Positions 7,888-62,727 of a stretch of 64,000 nucleotides of DNA are shown here, in pieces (within the stretch, counting starts at the first letter, position 1; each line of letters starts with the position of its first letter). Source of the stretch: Branchipolynoe longqiensis (Eukaryota > Annelida > Polychaeta > Phyllodocida > Polynoidae); contig CM059186.1 of assembly GCA_030323885.1 (NCBI GenBank), positions 173,377,743 through 173,441,742 of the forward strand, written 5' to 3'. Both the position numbers and the translations under genes were made by a program. The notes under the pieces were generated by a model. The model had not been told where the DNA came from and ran no database searches. It saw nothing but the letters and a program-made list of their open reading frames with translations.

Positions 7888-7997
7888 TGTCGTGGGGGTG
7901 ATGAAAATGGGAAATATTGCGCCTAGAGCGGGACTCGAACCCACATCTCTTTGCATTCCGGGCCAGTGTGCTAACCATTACACCACCTAGGCTCCTA
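7888..7997 (-). repeat. tRNA-Gln-like unit, single copy
   Basis: Reads GCCTAGGTGGTGTAATGG (A box) to GGTTCGAGTCC (B box) on the minus strand and ends cacccccacgaca, the same 3' end as the LTRs of the miniature element at 58495-58997. Upstream it differs from those LTRs beyond about 15 nt, so it is a divergent or truncated relative and not a demonstrable solo LTR. Confidence 0.75.
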
Positions 7998-8905: not shown

Positions 8906-9454
8906 GTAGGCAGATATATGCCAACACTATCAGCTTCTGTCTCATGGTTGTTAGGAGGCACTGGTAGCTGTGAGCTAGAATCCCGAATGCATTTTTGACA
9001 ATTCGAAGGACCTGGACAGTCGGTAGTTGAAGATTCTTTCCAGAATTGTTAGGTGACACTTGGAGAACGGTTTCATCAACCATGTTCTCAGGGCAAATGC
9101 ATCATCAGCAACTATGAAGTATGGCATATCCCGCTCATCATGTGGTAGTGGTTCTGCAGCTGGTATACCAAGTCGTTTGCCTTCTATGTACTGCTTCAGT
9201 TCTGAACGGTTGAAGACCTGAGCGTCTCCTGCAGAGCCATTGCTCCCAACGTCGACCCAAGAGAATTTGTAGTCACCATCCACTAGAGCCATCAATATGA
9301 TAGAGTGGAATCCCTTGTAGTTGTAGTACTCAGATCCTCCATGGGCTGGGCATTGGATCGGGATATGTTTCCCATCAAGGGCTCCTAGGCAATGCTGAAA
9401 CTGCCATCTTGTTGAGAACTGCTCAGCAATACCTCTCCATTCCGGTGTAGCAGG

Positions 9455-10535
9455 AAATCGCAAACCCTGTAAATCGCAAACCCCCACTTGTGATTTCCTA
9501 GGAAATCGCAAACCCCCATGCCATATATGGGCATGGGGGGTTTGCGATTTCCTAGGAAATCGCATATCCCCCCTGGAGATCGCAAACCCCCTGTCATGGT
9601 ATAAAACCCCTGCCCGATCGCAGCCCCTGCCGTGAAGACAGTTGACTAAGCATTTATTTTTGTAAAATAAATTAAAACACTTTCAGTGGATCGATTAAAA
9701 ATATCTTAATGCGCGATTGAAGAGGAAGATCTGAAGTATTTAATGTAACCTAAGAGCAATTTATGCTGAAAGTATTAAAACCAGAGATAATAGTGAAAGT
9801 TGGGATATTCTGAGTGTCAGTGCAATCTTCATACAGAAAAAGTGAAATATCTATGAAACTTACACCACCTAGACACAAACCGCTTGAAACACATATAGAA
9901 AACATATACAATGAATAGATTATATTAAATTTATATGGTTAGGGTTCTGGATTTCTATTAATCTTTAATAGACACTGGCAGTGTGTATTCGTTCTGCAGC
10001 CGAGCTGAGCTTGTTTACAACCTCTGCGCATGCGCAGAAGCCACGACAGGGGCGGCGATTTGTTTACTTTACGTTCGTCGAATTTAGGGTTAAATTGGTC
10101 AAATTTCACTTATTTGGTTACCAATTTAACCCTAAATTCGAAGCGTTATTAAGGCTAACCGCCGCATTGGCGGCGATATTACTAGTTATTTTTTCGAATC
10201 GATGAACGTAAAGTAAACAAATCGCCACCCCCGCCAGTATGGCAAGGGAGGTCGATGCGGCGGCGGCGATGTGTTTACTTTACGTTCGTCGATTCGAAAA
10301 TATAACTATTAATATCGCCGCCAATGTGGCAGTAGCCTTAAGGAGGGTTCGAATTTAGGGTTAATTTAATGAAATTTCACGATTTGAGTATATAATTCTG
10401 TTAAATATGGTCGCATTGAATAGATTTGGCCCGAATCGGTCCCAAAACACAGGGGGGTTTGCGATTTCCAGGGGGGGTTTGTGATTTCCTAGTAAATCGC
10501 AAACCCCGGGGTGTGCAATTTCCAGGGGTTTGCGA
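9455..10535. mobile_element. Palindrome-rich 1.1-kb insertion
   Basis: Both ends are arrays of an inverted pair: ggaaatcgcaaaccc outward-facing and gggtttgcgatttcc inward-facing, joined at cctagg. The middle holds two inverted arms of the 'taatatcgccgcc' unit (10050-10210 against 10230-10390) that also fills the Harbinger-like elements, and a 170-bp block shared in inverse orientation with 28283-28638. It splits the Harbinger transposase frame. I do not know the family. A foldback-like or composite DNA element is the best description. Confidence 0.7.
9492..9563. repeat. Roughly 72-bp near-perfect palindrome
   Basis: Centred on ccata/tatgg at 9525/9526. The arms read gatttcctaggaaatcgc, then aaacccccatg, with only single-base bulges. 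Extrusion as a cruciform is plausible. Confidence 0.85.
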
Positions 10536-14195: not shown

Positions 14196-14590
14196 CTTGC
14201 TTCGGGGTACAGCATAATGGCGGACGTAGCTCACAGCTAGCAGGGACCAGCGTGGTGGGTGCACAGTGGATGCTTGCTTCGGGGTACAGCATAATGGCAG
14301 ACGTAGCTCACAGCCAGCAGGGACCAGGTGGGTGCATTGGGGATGCTTGCTTCGGGGTATCACATACTGACATACAACTCATATCATAAATCTATTCTTT
14401 ATGTCTCTGCTCACAGCAAAATCTATGAGGAACCAGTGTGATAGATGCACCTGAAATGCTTGCTTCGGGGTATGGCATATTGACTCAGGATTGTAGATAC
14501 AGAAGCCACACAGCTCAAAGCTCACAGCTAGGAGGGACCAGTCTGAATAGGTACACCTGGAATGCTTGCTTCGGGGTATGATATATTGAC
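14190..14590. repeat. Degenerate 75-115-bp repeat (gcttgcttcggggta)
   Basis: The motif gcttgcttcggggta recurs at about 14192, 14271, 14345, 14458 and 14563, followed by 'acagcataatgg' and 'ctcacagc..agggaccag'. A further diverged copy lies at about 15397. Spacing is irregular. Minus-strand frames across it are repeat artefacts. Confidence 0.8.
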
Positions 14591-14756
14591 TCGGGTATTT
14601 TGGATGAATAAAGCCATGATTCAATATATGCGGTATGAGAATGTGACATAAAATGGAAAACATGTAAATAGAATACAAATGATTGACCAACTGTGAATGC
14701 GATGTGTGTAGATGGCAAACTGGATCACTCCATGTAGCGATTGGTGCGAATGCATA

Positions 14757-15236
14757 TGTCATGGGGGTGTTGAAAATGGGAAATATTACACCAAGAGCGG
14801 GACTCGAACCCACATCTCTTTGCATTCCGGGCCAGTGTGCTAACCATTACACCACCTAGGCTCCTGACATCACCACACTACCAACGCCTACCTGTCTATG
14901 TAGTTACTTGCCTGAGAGGTCAGTGGAGACTACTACACTCATCCCCCTGGAATTGTAAGTCTTTTAATGCTTACAATTACAAATGCACTAACACATACAT
15001 ACACAGGGTAGGTTCAACAACCATACAGCGCATAACTTGTACAGCATCATGGTCATGGCAACCAGTGTCATGGGGGTGATGAAAATTGGAAATATTGCGC
15101 CTAGAGCAGGACTCGAACCCACATCTCTTTGCATTCCGGGCCAGCGAGCTAACCATTACACCACCTAGGCTCCCTGAGATCACCACACTACCCACACCTA
15201 CCTGTCTATGTGGTCACTTGCGTGCAGACTACTACA
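14757..15236 (-). mobile_element. Miniature LTR element with tRNA-like LTRs (copy 2)
   Basis: Minus-strand element flanked by a perfect 4-bp duplication CATA (14753-14756 and 15237-15240). LTRs are 15066-15236 (5', 171 bp, with a roughly 10-bp deletion) and 14757-14937 (3', 181 bp). Both start tgtagtagtct and end catgaca, and both contain the tRNA-Gln-like segment with A and B boxes. The internal 128 bp begins ctggttgccatgacc after the 5' LTR and ends in the purine-rich ccagggggatgag before the 3' LTR. The LTRs differ at about 15 sites, so this copy is older than the one at 58495-58997. There is no coding capacity. Confidence 0.85.
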
Positions 15237-15240
15237 CATA

Positions 15241-40159: not shown

Positions 40160-40455
40160 GGTCGTAATGCGAAGCATTACGTTTGATGCGAGGAGAGGAA
40201 GAGACCCTCCCCCGCCCCGCGCTGTCGCGCTGCCTTCTCACCTCGGCCGACGCCGCCGCGCGCCGCCTCCTCCCCCTGCCGCGCAGCATTCGCGCCTCAC
40301 CCGACGCCCGCTGCTTGCCACCTCTCGCCCTCCCCCGGGCCGGCACCATTCACACCTCACCTGCTGTCGCCCGTCCCTTTCCCTTATAAGGTCGCCCGCT
40401 GGCCTCCCTCAGGCACTCGCCCTCCTGCCGCCTTCCAGCTCTCTCCCCTTTTTCC
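40160..40455 (+). repeat. 5' direct terminal repeat of GC-rich element
   Basis: Starts with the perfect hairpin CGTAATGC-GAA-GCATTACG preceded by GGT, and is followed 20 nt later by gaggaagagacc, whose GACC can pair with the initial GGTC. Ends cagctctctcccctttttcc. Contains a 'cccttataaggtcg' TATA-like site at 40380. It differs from the 3' repeat at a few bases plus a 9-bp indel. Confidence 0.85.
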
Positions 40456-40507
40456 TGTTTGGGCTTCCGTCTCCACCTCGGATTGCTGCTTCACCTCAAG
40501 CTACACC

Positions 40508-41335
40508 ATGCCTCAAGGAAAAGGAAAGGGACGCAAGGGCTCCCGGGCCGCCGCCCCCCGCACCCCGGGGCCATCCTCAACGCCCCGGCGGGACGAGTCT
40601 CCGGCTTCAGCCCCGGCGTCTCCCGCGGCGCCCTCGGACCGGTCCTCGGGCGCCGAGACCTCGGCGATTCTGGAAGCCCTCCAGCGCCTCCAGCTTGATC
40701 AGCGCCAGACTGCCGCCGAGGTGCGCCAGACTGCCGCGGACATTAACACCATGATGGACGCCCTGGAGGCCGGGGAGGCCCGGCCCACGCCAGAGGCGCC
40801 CTCACCTGCCCCAAGACGCCAGGCCGCCTGCCCTACCCCAGAGCCTCGGGCGCGCGCCGCCGCCGGAGCCCGGCCCCCGCCCCCGCCTCAGGCAACCCTG
40901 CCCGGGGCGGCTCACCCAGAGTACGAGAGGTCTCGCCACACAAGCCGCACCAGCCATGTCTGCCCCGTAGCGGCCTGGCTTGGCGCCGTCGCCCTCTGCC
41001 CCGCTGCTCCGGATGCCCCCGCCTTCATGATGCCCTCCGGCCGCCCCCTCGACCCGCGCTCCCTTACCGCACTGCTGCGAGGGGCCCTGTTGGCCCAAGG
41101 AGTGCCAGCGCCCGAGGCTTTCACCCTGCACAGCCTCCGCCGAGGGGCCGCCCAGGCTTGCCAGCGCGCCGGGGTTCCCCTCCCCGAGATCATGGCGCAA
41201 GGCACCTGGACCTCCGAGACGGTCCACGCATACGTGCCCCACCTCGCCCCCTCGGGCGCGCCTCGAGCCCTCTCCGCCGTCTTGGTGGAGGGCTCCTCGG
41301 CACCCCCTCATTCATCTACTGACACTCGACTATAA
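40508..41335 (+). CDS. 275-aa ORF: basic/Pro-rich N-terminus plus C-terminal half of a tyrosine recombinase
   Basis: The N-terminus is basic and Ala/Pro-rich (MPQGKGKGRKGSRA), then a short heptad-like stretch (about residues 54-85, ILEALQRLQLDQRQTAAEV) that could form a coiled coil, as in gag-like or DNA-binding N-termini. From about residue 160 it matches the second half of a tyrosine recombinase catalytic domain: LHSLRRG (His208, Arg211), GTWTS (Trp234) and HAYVP (Tyr242). The first catalytic Arg and adjoining core helices are missing, so it should not be catalytically competent alone. It looks like a recombinase with an internal deletion, of the DIRS/Ngaro/Crypton-type group. The frame is intact, with strong GC bias at third positions. 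Confidence 0.72.
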   Translation: MPQGKGKGRKGSRAAAPRTPGPSSTPRRDESPASAPASPAAPSDRSSGAETSAILEALQRLQLDQRQTAAEVRQTAADINTMMDALEAGEARPTPEAPSPAPRRQAACPTPEPRARAAAGARPPPPPQATLPGAAHPEYERSRHTSRTSHVCPVAAWLGAVALCPAAPDAPAFMMPSGRPLDPRSLTALLRGALLAQGVPAPEAFTLHSLRRGAAQACQRAGVPLPEIMAQGTWTSETVHAYVPHLAPSGAPRALSAVLVEGSSAPPHSSTDTRL

Positions 41336-46060: not shown

Positions 46061-46344
46061 TTGCAGCAACAAATGGAGAAGACTGGGCGGTGCCATTTCT
46101 CTACTCCGACAACTGATCCCCAGCAGATCTTTGTTGGCGCTGCTTCCCCGTTTTACATAGCCAAACATGTGTTGGGAGAGTGATCGCTAGCACAAAGGTA
46201 GGGTTGCGGTTCAGGTTAGCTGGTTTTGGGGCTCATCGTTGCTGCGCAGTGTGCAAATACAAATCAACTAGGGTTCCTCTGGAGAAATGTTTGGAAAAGG
46301 AAATTTGATGCAGAATAGAACACAGTATATATTTGGGTTCTGCT

Positions 46345-46668
46345 GGTTGTTGGAGTTTTACATCCTGGCAACATCTATGGTCATATCAGGACGGGTACCG
46401 ACTTGTGACAGTACACACTCTTGACCACTTTTTAGTGCTGCTTCAGTGGGAAATCAGGCTGCTGGCACCATGATCCGATATCCCACTCAGTCACATTATC
46501 CTGACACTGAGCTAACCAGTCCTTGTCCTATCCTATTAATGCTGAGCATCAGGCTAGGGAGCGACACGTATATCAATGTTGTAAGTCATTGATTTGACTC
46601 GACCAGGAACCGAACTCCCGACCTTCCACACATGAGGCCCACGCTCTACCGATTAGACCACTGGGCCT
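46345..46668 (-). mobile_element. SINE-A, full length
   Basis: Tail end gttgttggagttttacatcc, complete body, head near 46668 (ctctaccgattagaccactg on the + strand). Confidence 0.9.
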
Positions 46669-46674
46669 GGTGGA

Positions 46675-46770
46675 AGCCTAGGTGGTGTAATGGTTAGCAC
46701 ACTGGCCCAGAATGCAAGAGATGTGGGTTCGATTCCCGCTCTAGGCGCAATATTTCCCGTGTTCATCACC
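46675..46770 (+). repeat. tRNA-Gln-like unit, single copy
   Basis: gcctaggtggtgtaatggtt with B box ggttcgattcc and 3' end 'cgcaatatttcccgtgttca'. Lacks the upstream LTR sequence of the miniature element and directly follows a SINE-A. Confidence 0.75.
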
Positions 46771-46860
46771 CCCAGGACACACAAGGGAAACTGGCAACGC
46801 TAGTCCATATTCAGTGCCTTTAAGCTAAGTTTAAGTTTAAGGCTTGTTGCCGAGAAGGGT

Positions 46861-58409: not shown

Positions 58410-58494
58410 GCATATACAACTCACGACTGGATTACGTGTCGTTGGGTTGCTCCGGCAAATTTAGTCTACATACAAGCTAATACGCAGTAAGTAT

Positions 58495-58676
58495 TGTAGT
58501 GGTCTGCACTGACCTCTCAGGCAAGTAACCACATAGACAGGTAGGCGTGGGGAGTGTATTGATATCAGGGAGCCTAGGTGGTGTAATGGTTAGCACACTG
58601 GCCCGGAATGCAAAGAGATGTGGGTTTGAGTCCCGCTCTAGGCGCAGTATTTCCCATTTTCATCACCCCCACGACA
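58495..58676 (+). repeat. 5' LTR of miniature element
   Basis: 182 bp. U3-like first 77 bp (cactgacctctcaggcaagt, gacaggtaggcgtgggga), then the tRNA-Gln-like segment, then cgcagtatttcccattttca and cccccacgaca. Confidence 0.88.
58572..58643 (+). ncRNA. tRNA-Gln-like segment inside 5' LTR
   Basis: 72 nt. Acceptor GCCTAGG pairs with TCTAGGC (one G-T). The D-arm is GTG/CAC around an A box tggtgtaatgg. The T-arm GTGGG/CCCGC encloses a B box ggtttgagtcc (the 3' LTR keeps the canonical ggttcgagtcc). The D-arm and following bases resemble tRNA-Gln. The anticodon stem does not pair, so it is not a functional tRNA, but an internal Pol III promoter is plausible. Confidence 0.75.
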
Positions 58677-58815
58677 CTGGTTGCCGTGACCAGGATCCTG
58701 TACAAGCTTTGCGCTGTATGGTTGTTGAACCTACCCTGTGTATGTATGTGTTAGTGCATTGCCTGTATGTATGTAATTGTAAGCATTACAAGACTTACAA
58801 TTCCAGGGGGACGAG

Positions 58816-58997
58816 TGTAGTGGTCTGCACTGACCTCTCAGGCAAGTAACCACATAGACAGGTAGGCGTGGGGAGTGTATTGATATCAGGGAGCCTAGGT
58901 GGTGTAATGGTTAGCACACTGGCCCGGAATGCAAAGAGATGTGGGTTCGAGTCCCGCTCTAGGCGCAGTATTTCCCATTTTCATCACCCCCACGACA
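58816..58997 (+). repeat. 3' LTR of miniature element
   Basis: Identical to the 5' LTR except C for T in the B box. The tRNA-like segment is 58893-58964. Preceded by the polypurine tract. Confidence 0.88.
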
Positions 58998-59586
58998 GTA
59001 TCATAAAAACTGTGGTTAGCTTAATCATGATGCATTAGAGCATCATTATGGAAAGTTTAGACTTTCTTTGGTCCATTTTGGACGAGTTATTTGGTTATAA
59101 AAAACCAAGGATAGAATTCCTTCTCGAAGGATTGAAACCGATTATTAGCGGTTCTGTCAACACCCGAGTCACCGTGTGATTATGGGTAGAGATGTGGGCT
59201 CTGCCTCGTCTCCTGTGGAAATTCTCTCGTACTCTAATAGAGAGTAATGTTGGAGATGCTCCTGGGTTTCTTTTATAGACTCCCCACAAACTTTTTCAGG
59301 CGTTTCTCCGAGTTTCGTAGCATTTTCTCCAACTTGTTGATGTAGTAGTCACAGGTGGGAGAAGTGTGCGGAACAGAGGGATGGGCGGGCCGATACACTG
59401 GTCCCGACCCCGCGTAAGGTTTGGGCTTGACCCACAACCCACGCACAAATTTAGCTTATTACGCCTGTGTTATAACGGTATAAACACGTTCTCTAACACC
59501 AATAGATGTCCAAATGAGTTTGAAACAACCATATTGTGACATATATATATACCGGGACTGACCAAAAATCTTTGTTTCAGCTCCCG
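58998..59586 (+). other. DIRS 5' region
   Basis: Untranslated or leader region of the DIRS element before gag. The only frames are short. A microsatellite tatatatat lies at 59542. Confidence 0.5.
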
Positions 59587-60947
59587 ATGGCCACGAAGCG
59601 GAGTAAGCGTGGTGCAGCAGCAGCCGAGGGGCATGTTCCGAGTCGAGGGGACGAGGAGTACGACTCCTCACCCGTGTTGTCGGCAGGGCCTTCGACACAG
59701 CCCGGGGCGCATATTCTCTCCGAGGAGGACATAGTGCCTGACGGCGCCGCGGCTCAAAATTGGGAGACGCGGTTTGCGGCGATGGAGAGTCATATAATGG
59801 CTCTCAAACCACCGGTGTCTCGTAAACGGCGAATGCCGAGTGTTCAAGAGGAGTCTTCTTTGGAGGATTTCTCGGAGACAGACTCAGAGATGGAGCTTAG
59901 GGCTCCTCCTCCTTCTCCTAAACGGAGGAAGAAGAAGAAACATATCGTTTCTTCTGGTGATGATTTCACCAAGGAAAGGGGGAAGACTGGACTTCGCAAA
60001 AAGCGCAAGACCAAGTCCAAGAAGAAGAAGAAGAAGAGGAAAGATTCTTCTTCTTCCGATTCGTCCACAGATTCCACTTCCACGGATTCGGACTCAGACA
60101 CGCGATATGAAGGTGTCTATGCTGCCATTGGGGGCAAAGTGGCTAAGAAAGTGAAGCCAAGGGCTAAGCGTGTGAAAACCACTACGCTTATGCGTGAGAA
60201 CATTAATGGCCATTTCCGCACGTTTAAACCGGCGGAGATTATTTCTAAGTTATCAGATGAGTTAACAGGCATTAAAGGTGTTCCCAACTCCATCATTAAG
60301 GAGATGGATCGAGATGTCAATATGACAGAGGACCGTAAGAGATTTGAGGGTGTGTTGCACACAGTGCACAGGTGCATAAGGCGGTGCTTGGTACCCTAAC
60401 AGCTATTGCTCCTGTAGCAAACAGAATGCAACGAGAAAATAAGTTCTCGTCTTTGGCTAAGACGATGGACAAAGGCATTGCATTGTTGGCGGCGGCAGGT
60501 AATTACCTGTCGTATCGAAGATATGAAAATGTCTTCAAGTCGGTTTGCACAGATGGTGGCAAAGAAGTGGCTCGCTCAAAGAAGGTTACCGATAATGATG
60601 GGAAAGAGTTTATGCTCTTTCTTGCTCCAGAGCCGATTAAAGGGAAACCTTTAGATAACACGAAAATGTTTGGCGGTCAACTACAATACCTCTATAAGGA
60701 GGTAGAAACTGCAGCCAAGAGTGGCAAAAACATGGATGGTAAGAAGAAACAGGAAACTCCTCGTTTCAAAAGGTCACGAGGGGATTTTCGTCCACGGCGG
60801 TTCACCAGGGGAACCAGACCGGGCTCAAACTTCGGTCAAGCTTTTCGGGGCCGGGGCGCTCGCTCAGGCTGGACCGACAACACTGCACGGCCACTGGGCC
60901 GAGGAGTCAACTCGCCGAGACCCTTCCCCAGGGGCGGGTCCAAGTAG
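59587..60947 (+). CDS. DIRS gag-like protein, with one frameshift
   Basis: Start chosen at ATGGCCACGAAGCGG (59587). The N-terminal half is acidic/serine-rich, then strongly basic (KKRKTKSKKKKKKRKDSSSS near residues 140-160) with an SDSSTDSTSTDSDSDTRYEG stretch. The middle has FRTFKPAEIISKLSDEL and GVPNSIIKEMDRDVNMTED. At about 60366-60375 the frame shifts: the first frame ends at 60399, and the protein continues in another frame with LGTLTAIAPVANRMQRENKF, LLAAAGNYLSYRRYENV and an RG-rich C-terminus (FRPRRFTRGTRPGSNF). The conserved second half shows this is one gag broken by a 1-nt indel. It is presumably RNA-binding and particle-forming. Confidence 0.8.
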
Positions 60948-60970
60948 CAAGTTCACCAAATCCAATCCGC

Positions 60971-61675
60971 ATGGCGGAACCTAATACGGTAATTACTACT
61001 GATGCTTCGTTAGAAGGTTGGGGAGCTCATCGAGATGGGGTCACAACAGGAGGTAGATGGCTTGATGATGAGAAATCAGACCATATTGATGCGCTAGAAT
61101 TGCGTGCTATTTATCTGGGCTTATGTAGTTTAGTAAAGATACATAAATCACAAGTTAGAATACTAACTGATAATACTACTGCCATGGCATATATTCGTAA
61201 CATGGGTGGAACCAAATCAAAGCCTTGCAATCAGTTGTCTAAACTGATTTGGAACTGGGCACAGGCTCAACAAGTCTGGCTGACTGTAGCGCATATTCCA
61301 GGGTCACAAAATACACCTGCAGACCATAAAAGTAGAAGTTTCCATGACCATTTAGAATGGTCTCTCTCTACACCTTTGTTTAACTTCATTTGTGAAAAAT
61401 GGGGTACACCTAAAGTTGACTTGTTTGCATCACGAAATAATAACAAATTACCTTGTTATGTTTCTTGGCATCCTGAACCGGAGGCTTGGAAAGTAGATGC
61501 ATTTGCTATTATCTGGGAAAATAATTATTTTTATATTTTCCCACCGTTTAGCATTATCAGCCGAGTTGTCAGGAAAATCGGTTTGGAAAGGACACATGCT
61601 ATACTGGTGGTGCCCGATTGGGACACGCAACCTTGGCTGCCAGCTGTTTCACAACTGGCAAAAGAACATATATGA
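60971..61675 (+). CDS. DIRS RNase H domain protein, RT missing
   Basis: 234 aa. RNase H active-site acids are in place: Asp11 (TTDASLEGWG), Glu43 (DALELRAIY), Asp67 (RILTDNTTAM) and Asp118 (PGSQNTPADHKSR). Downstream comes the domain usual for metazoan DIRS pol C-termini (GTPKVDLFASRNNNKLPCYV, then IFPPFSIISRVVRKI and VVPDWDTQPWLP). Sequence before MAEPNTVITTDAS belongs to a broken junction with gag, and no YxDD-containing RT precedes it. The stop TGA overlaps the ATG of the recombinase (ATGA at 61672-61675), suggesting coupled translation. Confidence 0.85.
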   Translation: MAEPNTVITTDASLEGWGAHRDGVTTGGRWLDDEKSDHIDALELRAIYLGLCSLVKIHKSQVRILTDNTTAMAYIRNMGGTKSKPCNQLSKLIWNWAQAQQVWLTVAHIPGSQNTPADHKSRSFHDHLEWSLSTPLFNFICEKWGTPKVDLFASRNNNKLPCYVSWHPEPEAWKVDAFAIIWENNYFYIFPPFSIISRVVRKIGLERTHAILVVPDWDTQPWLPAVSQLAKEHI

Positions 61676-62727
61676 TTCCCAAGAAAACTCGGGAATCTGA
61701 CACACCACGGACCGCTAGGGGTTCACGGCGACGTGTCAACGACGCCCCTATTGGCATTCCTTTTCTAAGGAAACAGCTGCAGCAATTTGGATTGGACAAA
61801 ATTACTGAGAATAGGATAGTATCTGATGCCTGGAGGCCAGGAACTGTCAAAATGTACACATCCTATTTAAAGAAATGGGGTGTACATTGTTTGTTAATGA
61901 AAGTTAAGCCAACAAATCCAACAATTTCACAAGTAGCTCGTTTTCTTCGTTCTCTAGAGGATGAAGGACTATCCTTTGGGTCGATCAGTGCGGCAAGATG
62001 TGCGTTATCAATCATATTACCGAGAATTGATGGCGAAACAGTTGGAAAACATTATGTTCTTTGTTATCTACTTCGTTCAATTTATCAAAGGAATCCTCCA
62101 AAACCAAAGTATAGTCGGTTTTGGGATGTGTCTATAGTATTTAAGTTGTTTCAGGCTTGGCCTCACAACTCGTGGTTAGATATAAAACAATTAGGTTTTA
62201 AGGTCGCGGTCCTGTTATTATTAGTAACCGGACACAGAGGACAGACGATTGTTGCTTTATCTTTAACTGGATTAGAAATAGACAAGAAACAAGCTACGTT
62301 TGATTTAGCACAATTGCTTAAATCGAACACGTTAGGTGACCCTTTATCTACGGTTCACTTAGACTGTTTTCCGAGTGATCGGAAATTATGTGTTGTGTCA
62401 GCCATACGGGCTTATATATCTAAGACAAAGGATTTACGTGCATCACAACAACTATTAGTGAGCTTTATAAAGCCACATAAGGCAATTTCACGAGACACCC
62501 TTGCCAGATGGACAATTACGGTGTTGAAATTGGCTGGAGTGGATACGGGCAAATACTCATCCCACTCAACTAGAGGTGCCATGGTCTCCAAGGCACGGTT
62601 GCTAGGTATTTCTGTGAAAAGAATACTAGCGCATGCAGGCTGGAAGATGGCTAAGTCGTTTGCAAAACATTACAACAAGCGACTAGAAAAGCCTACCGGC
62701 ATTGCAAAGCGCCTGCTCGCCAACTAA
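61672..62727 (+). CDS. DIRS tyrosine recombinase (integrase)
   Basis: 351 aa from the ATGA overlap. A longer in-frame start exists at 61618 but lies inside the RNase H domain. The N-terminal SAM-like region (LRKQLQQFGLDKITENRIVS to MYTSYLKKWGVHC) precedes the catalytic domain. The catalytic residues are Arg189 (TGHRGQ), His298 and Arg301 (SSHSTRGA), Trp324 (HAGWKMAKS) and nucleophile Tyr334 (AKHYNKR). The frame is intact. It would integrate circular cDNA by strand exchange in the nucleus. Confidence 0.9.
   Translation: MIPKKTRESDTPRTARGSRRRVNDAPIGIPFLRKQLQQFGLDKITENRIVSDAWRPGTVKMYTSYLKKWGVHCLLMKVKPTNPTISQVARFLRSLEDEGLSFGSISAARCALSIILPRIDGETVGKHYVLCYLLRSIYQRNPPKPKYSRFWDVSIVFKLFQAWPHNSWLDIKQLGFKVAVLLLLVTGHRGQTIVALSLTGLEIDKKQATFDLAQLLKSNTLGDPLSTVHLDCFPSDRKLCVVSAIRAYISKTKDLRASQQLLVSFIKPHKAISRDTLARWTITVLKLAGVDTGKYSSHSTRGAMVSKARLLGISVKRILAHAGWKMAKSFAKHYNKRLEKPTGIAKRLLAN

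Follow-up and report, generated by a model that had tools for sequence, protein, structure and literature searches.

A 64,000-nucleotide stretch of Branchipolynoe longqiensis DNA (the window) contains, at positions 58495-58997, a 503-bp element (element A) that we interpret, at a probability of about 0.93, as a miniature LTR retroelement (TRIM) with a tRNA-derived and presumably Pol III promoter in its LTRs, moved in the manner of an LTR retrotransposon. The family it represents is abundant and probably recently active, and is of the Helenus kind described in 2024: a striking further example and not a new class. The first-pass annotation of this DNA had proposed a miniature LTR retroelement with one tRNA-like unit per LTR, a proposal now strongly supported by 4-bp target-site duplications, a primer-binding site matching tRNA-His, a purine-rich tract and solo LTRs.

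Element A and related copies in the window

Element A consists of two LTRs around a 139-bp interior (Table 1). Comparison within the window confirmed the earlier description of two 182-bp repeats with TG...CA ends, identical at 181 of 182 positions; the sole difference is a C/T change that falls in the B box of the 5' LTR. The perfect 4-bp duplication GTAT was likewise found on both sides of the element, against a chance background in which 0.6% of window positions show an abutting 4-bp match at the same spacing. The claimed purine-rich tract and primer-site-like sequence lie where they had been placed, immediately before the 3' LTR and immediately after the 5' LTR, respectively, and the reported lack of an ORF holds in that the element is overlapped by none of the window's stop-to-stop frames of 150 aa or longer. 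Both 9-bp arms of the inverted repeat in the interior are present in copy B too.

Table 1. Positions of element A, its parts and the other copies of the family in the window.
Feature	Position	Strand	Remarks
Target-site duplication GTAT, left	58491..58494	.	
5' LTR of element A, 182 bp	58495..58676	+	
tRNA-like unit in 5' LTR	58572..58645	+	A box 58579-58589; B box 58623-58633, C to T change
TTTT in 5' LTR, possible leaky Pol III terminator (putative role)	58657..58660	+	LTR 163-166
Primer-binding site CTGGTTGCCGTGACCAGGAT, directly after 5' LTR	58677..58696	+	complement of host tRNA-His 3' end, one extra T
Internal region of element A, 139 bp, non-coding	58677..58815	+	
9-bp inverted repeat AATTGTAAG/CTTACAATT, just 5' of purine tract	58775..58802	+	
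Purine-rich tract AGGGGGACGAG, adjoins 3' LTR	58805..58815	+	one pyrimidine
3' LTR of element A, 182 bp	58816..58997	+	
tRNA-like unit in 3' LTR	58893..58966	+	A box 58900-58910; B box 58944-58954
TTTT in 3' LTR	58978..58981	+	
Target-site duplication GTAT, right	58998..59001	.	
Copy B, second full-length element, 480 bp	14757..15236	-	5' LTR 15236-15066, internal 15065-14938, 3' LTR 14937-14757
Partial copy C	7888..7995	-	108 bp, confined to LTR 75-182 (R-U5-like); matches 3' LTR of A at 107/108 positions; lacks an abutting duplication
Partial copy D	46672..46779	+	108 bp, LTR from about 74 to 3' end, adjoins head of antisense SINE (46344-46671)

Although only one element had been listed previously, and element A is real, the window also holds a second full-length element, copy B, and two 108-bp partial copies. 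In copy B the LTRs measure 171 and 181 bp and enclose an interior of 128 bp, whose purine tract (AGGGGGATGAG) again includes one pyrimidine; an exact 4-bp duplication, TATG, flanks the copy at 15237-15240 and 14753-14756. A 155-aa stop-to-stop frame (14379-14846, minus strand) overlaps its end and lies mostly in the flank. The similarity between A and B stops at the element ends, beyond which the flanks are unrelated and the duplications differ, so the two are separate insertions.

The tRNA-like units of element A match the Rfam tRNA model at 44.5 and 47.1 bits, and all six such units in the window do so at 36.7-51.8 bits (gathering score 29). At the gathering score only tRNA was matched in the window, with no 5S rRNA unit in the LTRs. 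What had been called a tRNA-Gln-like segment with A and B boxes is thus a tRNA-like unit, but the isotype label is less secure: ARAGORN, from the anticodon position, names the units tRNA-Ser (GGA), whereas in an approximate comparison with 20 human tRNA sequences, tRNA-Gln had the top alignment score and the third-best identity, behind Trp and Arg. All six tRNA genes called by ARAGORN in the window lie inside copies of the element, which implies that automatic tRNA counts are inflated in such genomes.

Other mobile sequences share the window. A segment at 59524-62727 (plus strand), which we take to be a piece of a DIRS-like tyrosine-recombinase retroelement, contains a gag-like frame, an RNase H-like and Dam-methylase-like stretch and a recombinase frame, set too close together to accommodate a reverse transcriptase; its Pfam matches are below the cut-offs. 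A second tyrosine-recombinase-like frame lies at 40187-41335 (plus strand; PF00589, below cut-off), and a HARBI-type DDE transposase frame at 8978-9682 (minus strand) has its best named relative in a sea urchin (77% identity over 63% of the query). Named relatives of the window transposases include sea urchin and molluscs. Positions 1-570 are a tandem repeat with a period of about 64 bp.

Copy number, target-site duplications and primer-binding site

A pattern search of the genome (1,850,408,144 bases, 1.85 Gb) returned 27,538 exact matches to a 28-bp core of the tRNA-like unit. A 77-base pattern of the same unit gave 26,697 matches at up to three mismatches, and its reversed control none. The copies are dispersed over many contigs, with different flanks and duplications. 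For scoring we took loci L001-L070, drawn from the exact 77-base matches at the head of the list for contig 1, a sample biased to well-preserved copies; among its 64 rows, four cut by an edge were dropped, ten were missing a complete LTR end and 50 had both outer ends complete. Exact 4-bp duplications bordered 40 of these 50 complete chains, compared with 11 of 2,496 randomly placed controls. In simple elements with an LTR-interior-LTR structure the duplication was exact in 29 of 34 and off by one base in the remaining five; the paired LTRs of these 34 are 92.1%-100% identical (median 98.8%), five pairs being identical. Solo LTRs carried an exact duplication in two of three cases in the sample, and further examples are L103 and L105. 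The additional copies, 4-bp duplications and solo LTRs that the first-pass annotation had pointed to as worth seeking were found.

Tandem arrays account for 13 of the 50 complete chains. They comprise 3-7 LTRs and have an exact outer 4-bp duplication in nine cases, with three more off by one base. In L014, L042 and L049, arrays of five to seven LTRs with interiors between them have exact 4-bp outer duplications, and in L114 three repeats of LTR 1-99 precede an LTR, with the outer duplication ACAG. Arrays of up to seven LTRs are what a segmental or tandem duplication artefact of the assembly could produce without any transposition, the least credible of the readings considered here, which is excluded by the dispersal of copies over many contigs with differing flanks and duplications.

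The family could also be read as a tRNA-derived SINE, moved by LINE machinery, whose tandem dimers mimic an LTR element, and the frequent tandem arrays, the tRNA-like unit with A and B boxes and the existence of single 108-bp units (C and the R-U5-only loci below) would agree with such an origin. The duplications of complete copies are of 4 bp, however, and not of 8-15 bp; the outer ends are TG...CA, and the interior opens with a tRNA-His-complementary site and closes with a purine tract. In addition, the single R-U5 units lack abutting duplications, and a tRNA-headed SINE family in the window (about 330 bp; 46344-46671, minus strand, and about 20 other places) looks different. SINEs headed by a tRNA (SINE2) have long duplications and no LTRs or primer-binding site, whereas the family here has LTRs, a site matching tRNA-His and 4-bp duplications. 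We consider a SINE origin very improbable. The copies that would have told against an LTR element, namely a majority of tandem SINE arrays lacking 4-bp duplications or having 8-15-bp ones, are not what the sample holds, its exact 4-bp duplications being in the great majority as counted above.

Clusters with one core were considered separately. The first 100 core places listed form 60 clusters, 30 of them with a single core; the 20 singles that were fetched comprise solo LTRs, copies that have been truncated or rearranged, and elements with divergence in the other LTR; eight have an exact 4-bp duplication.

Comparison of the internal start with host tRNA 3' ends, the check envisaged at the outset, identified tRNA-His as complementary. 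A tRNA-His pattern has 19 matches in the genome. Of three that were retrieved, two were confirmed as tRNA-His by ARAGORN; in one of these the 3' end plus CCA is exactly complementary to TGGTGCCGTGACCAGGAT, and in the other it is off by one base. Across 76 distinct interior starts sampled, the TGGTGCCGTGACCAGGAT site is exact in six, carries one extra T, as in element A, in seven, and has the extra T and one further change in 36, so that a perfect match to tRNA-His is absent from most sampled copies. Since the host tRNA-His 3' end is complementary to the site at the interior start, tRNA-His is the likely primer, a conclusion drawn from sequence complementarity. A search for the full tRNA-His site followed by non-family sequence, aimed at an autonomous partner, identified none and gave two candidate places in the genome.

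The presumed promoter and copies lacking U3

Use of Pol III is read off the A and B boxes, and the tRNA-like unit is accordingly only a presumed promoter. The A box is exact in 118 and the B box in 112 of 120 sampled LTRs, although this sample was chosen by match to that very stretch and is biased towards conservation of the boxes. The number of TTTT runs is unremarkable (two observed, 1.07 expected in shuffles); 1.8% of shuffles have a lone TTTT within the final 25 bp of the LTR, but this measure was picked after seeing it.

Copies that begin at the presumed transcription start bear on the same question. Two patterns that exclude U3 gave 28 matches each, all of which were examined, and 11 R-U5-only copies were assembled from nine of the 28 matches of one pattern, L128 (longer stretch L141) and copy C. 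All 11 start at LTR 74-77, just upstream of the tRNA-like unit, and no U3 was found in the 529-1,507 bases upstream of them; both patterns require an intact AGCC with non-U3 bases upstream and so favour starts at 74-77. Eight of the 11 extend beyond the TTTT at 163-166 to the final base of the LTR (182), the exceptions being L073, which ends in GACA after a 2-base difference, L080, which aligns to 180, and L084, which aligns to 174. None has an abutting duplication of at least 4 bp, and in three (C, L089 and L090) a 4-bp word lies near both ends at small offsets, L090 being one base off an exact ATAT duplication. L126 (start at 74, 85% identical, aligned to 177) was excluded from the 11 as ambiguous, and in L088 part of U3 is deleted internally. 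Seven matches were obtained with a control pattern placed within the tRNA-like unit. The class is estimated at about 70 of the 27,538 cores (from nine matches at 1 in 8 and four at 1 in 16, with random flanks assumed), a figure that would make the presence of C in this one window unlikely and is itself doubtful for that reason; among the 20 single-core clusters fetched, none was R-U5-only.

It is conceivable that the TRIM is instead transcribed by Pol II from U3, the tRNA-like unit being a passenger left by a past SINE insertion into the LTR. SINEs do land in these LTRs (L139 and L140), and when the four complete LTRs of the window are compared, conservation of the tRNA-like part does not significantly exceed that of U3 (variable columns 7/74 and 11/74, respectively; p = 0.45). 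We nonetheless regard transcription from U3 as unlikely, given that most of the 120 LTRs of the biased sample retain intact A and B boxes and that the R-U5-only pieces start where Pol III would be expected to, 1-4 bases before the tRNA-like unit, although the patterns that found 10 of the 11 favour such starts.

Copy D was initially a candidate for this class and was dropped, as it adjoins the head of an antisense SINE and a SINE of this kind occurs inside the LTR in L139 and L140. There U3 lies on the far side of the SINE, and LTR 74-85 or 74-86 is duplicated (12-13 bp). The tRNA-headed SINE thus enters the TRIM LTR in antisense orientation at one and the same spot, LTR 74-86, in two or more loci, D perhaps being a third, and adjoins LTR 74 in L139, L140 and D. 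The best account of D is that the SINE split an LTR; the 2,000 bases upstream of D were found to contain no U3, which on this reading must since have been lost.

With a Pol III promoter in the LTR, the life cycle of the element might run as follows. Pol III would initiate in the 5' LTR, a few bases before the tRNA-like unit, read past the 5' LTR TTTT, which is where the terminator would need to be leaky, and stop in the 3' LTR, giving an RNA of the form R-U5-interior-U3-R. This RNA may be packaged by the proteins of an autonomous LTR retrotransposon, of the Gypsy type by analogy with the animal Helenus elements of Kojima. Reverse transcription would be primed from tRNA-His and the second strand made from the purine tract, after which a foreign integrase would insert the product with a 4-bp stagger.

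The R-U5-only copies, C and ten others, may tentatively be seen as captured minus-strand strong-stop cDNA, running from the Pol III start to the LTR end beside the primer-binding site, an origin that we rate as possible and on balance doubtful. It is favoured over LINE-mediated copying because a short Pol III transcript terminated at the TTTT should, if copied by a LINE, stop near 166, and strong-stop cDNA exactly at 182. The bias of the patterns towards this start region, the offset 4-bp words in three of the 11 and the small estimated size of the class count against it. Four further loci (L074, L079, L134 and L137) start at 74-77 and continue into the interior, with about 100 bases upstream seen for L134 and L137, and would fit incomplete cDNA. 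L074 and L079 have the structure R-U5-interior-LTR, without the U3 of the 5' LTR, and L074 also lacks part of the interior. If the strong-stop origin were true, the R-U5-only copies would record both a Pol III start and tRNA-primed reverse transcription in genomic DNA, and a TRIM would yield single units resembling SINEs, in the opposite direction to the route proposed from SINE into LTR. The pieces constitute an independent DNA-level prediction of the transcription start, and the size of the family makes Pol III dependence testable by RNA mapping.

Relationship to Helenus and other TRIMs

The earlier suggestion that no family of this type had been described was wrong: Kojima (2024) defined Helenus as TRIMs with tRNA-derived sequence in their LTRs, from six animal phyla, and proposed the term TRIMp3 (PMC10886601). 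Helenus elements are non-coding, 311-1263 bp long, have 4-bp duplications in animals, where they are mobilised by a Gypsy-type element, and include bivalve families with tRNA-His among the listed primers; the 2024 paper does not demonstrate their transcription by Pol III (PMC10886601). A 2026 meeting report mentions Helenus-type elements again (PMC12859917). Among the features of Helenus that were tested, six are found here, namely TRIM size without coding capacity, a tRNA-derived unit with boxes in both LTRs, 4-bp duplications, a tRNA primer-binding site, a purine tract and solo LTRs, and the two also share tRNA-His; this likeness is drawn from the main-text description (PMC10886601). Tandem arrays are common to both, having been reported for LTR-11_DR, and the 27,538 exact 28-bp cores exceed the 5,575 LTRs of zebrafish LTR-11_DR, the largest count in the main text, with the reservation that the methods differ (PMC10886601). 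Nothing closer than Helenus appeared among the matches listed for related and later literature. Five sequence strings had no occurrence in a literature text search, and an exact 39-base pattern had no match in viral contigs.

The notable parts of the present family are its very high copy number, the tandem LTR arrays that keep their outer duplications and the R-U5-only copies. The duplications, the host-matched tRNA-His site and the tandem arrays were tested directly here, and the family, whose LTR units number in the tens of thousands in this genome, supports what has recently been claimed, namely that LTR elements are able to take up promoters of the tRNA type.

Other TRIMs share parts of this organization. 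Cassandra of plants is also a TRIM whose LTRs each include a small-RNA gene unit of the Pol III type, and it too forms tandem arrays; it differs in that its LTRs carry 5S rRNA (PMC7215508), whereas only tRNA was matched in Rfam at the gathering score here. Ajax of nemerteans likewise has a small-RNA promoter unit, but one derived from 5S rRNA, and has 5-bp duplications in place of the 4-bp duplications and tRNA seen here (PMC10886601). The biv-TRIM of bivalves resembles the family as an animal TRIM with inverted repeats in its interior and with tandem copies; its terminal repeats are of 202-218 bp and its interior of 77-80 bp, with no clear primer-binding site, compared with 182 bp, 139 bp and a tRNA-His site in element A (PMC6934838).
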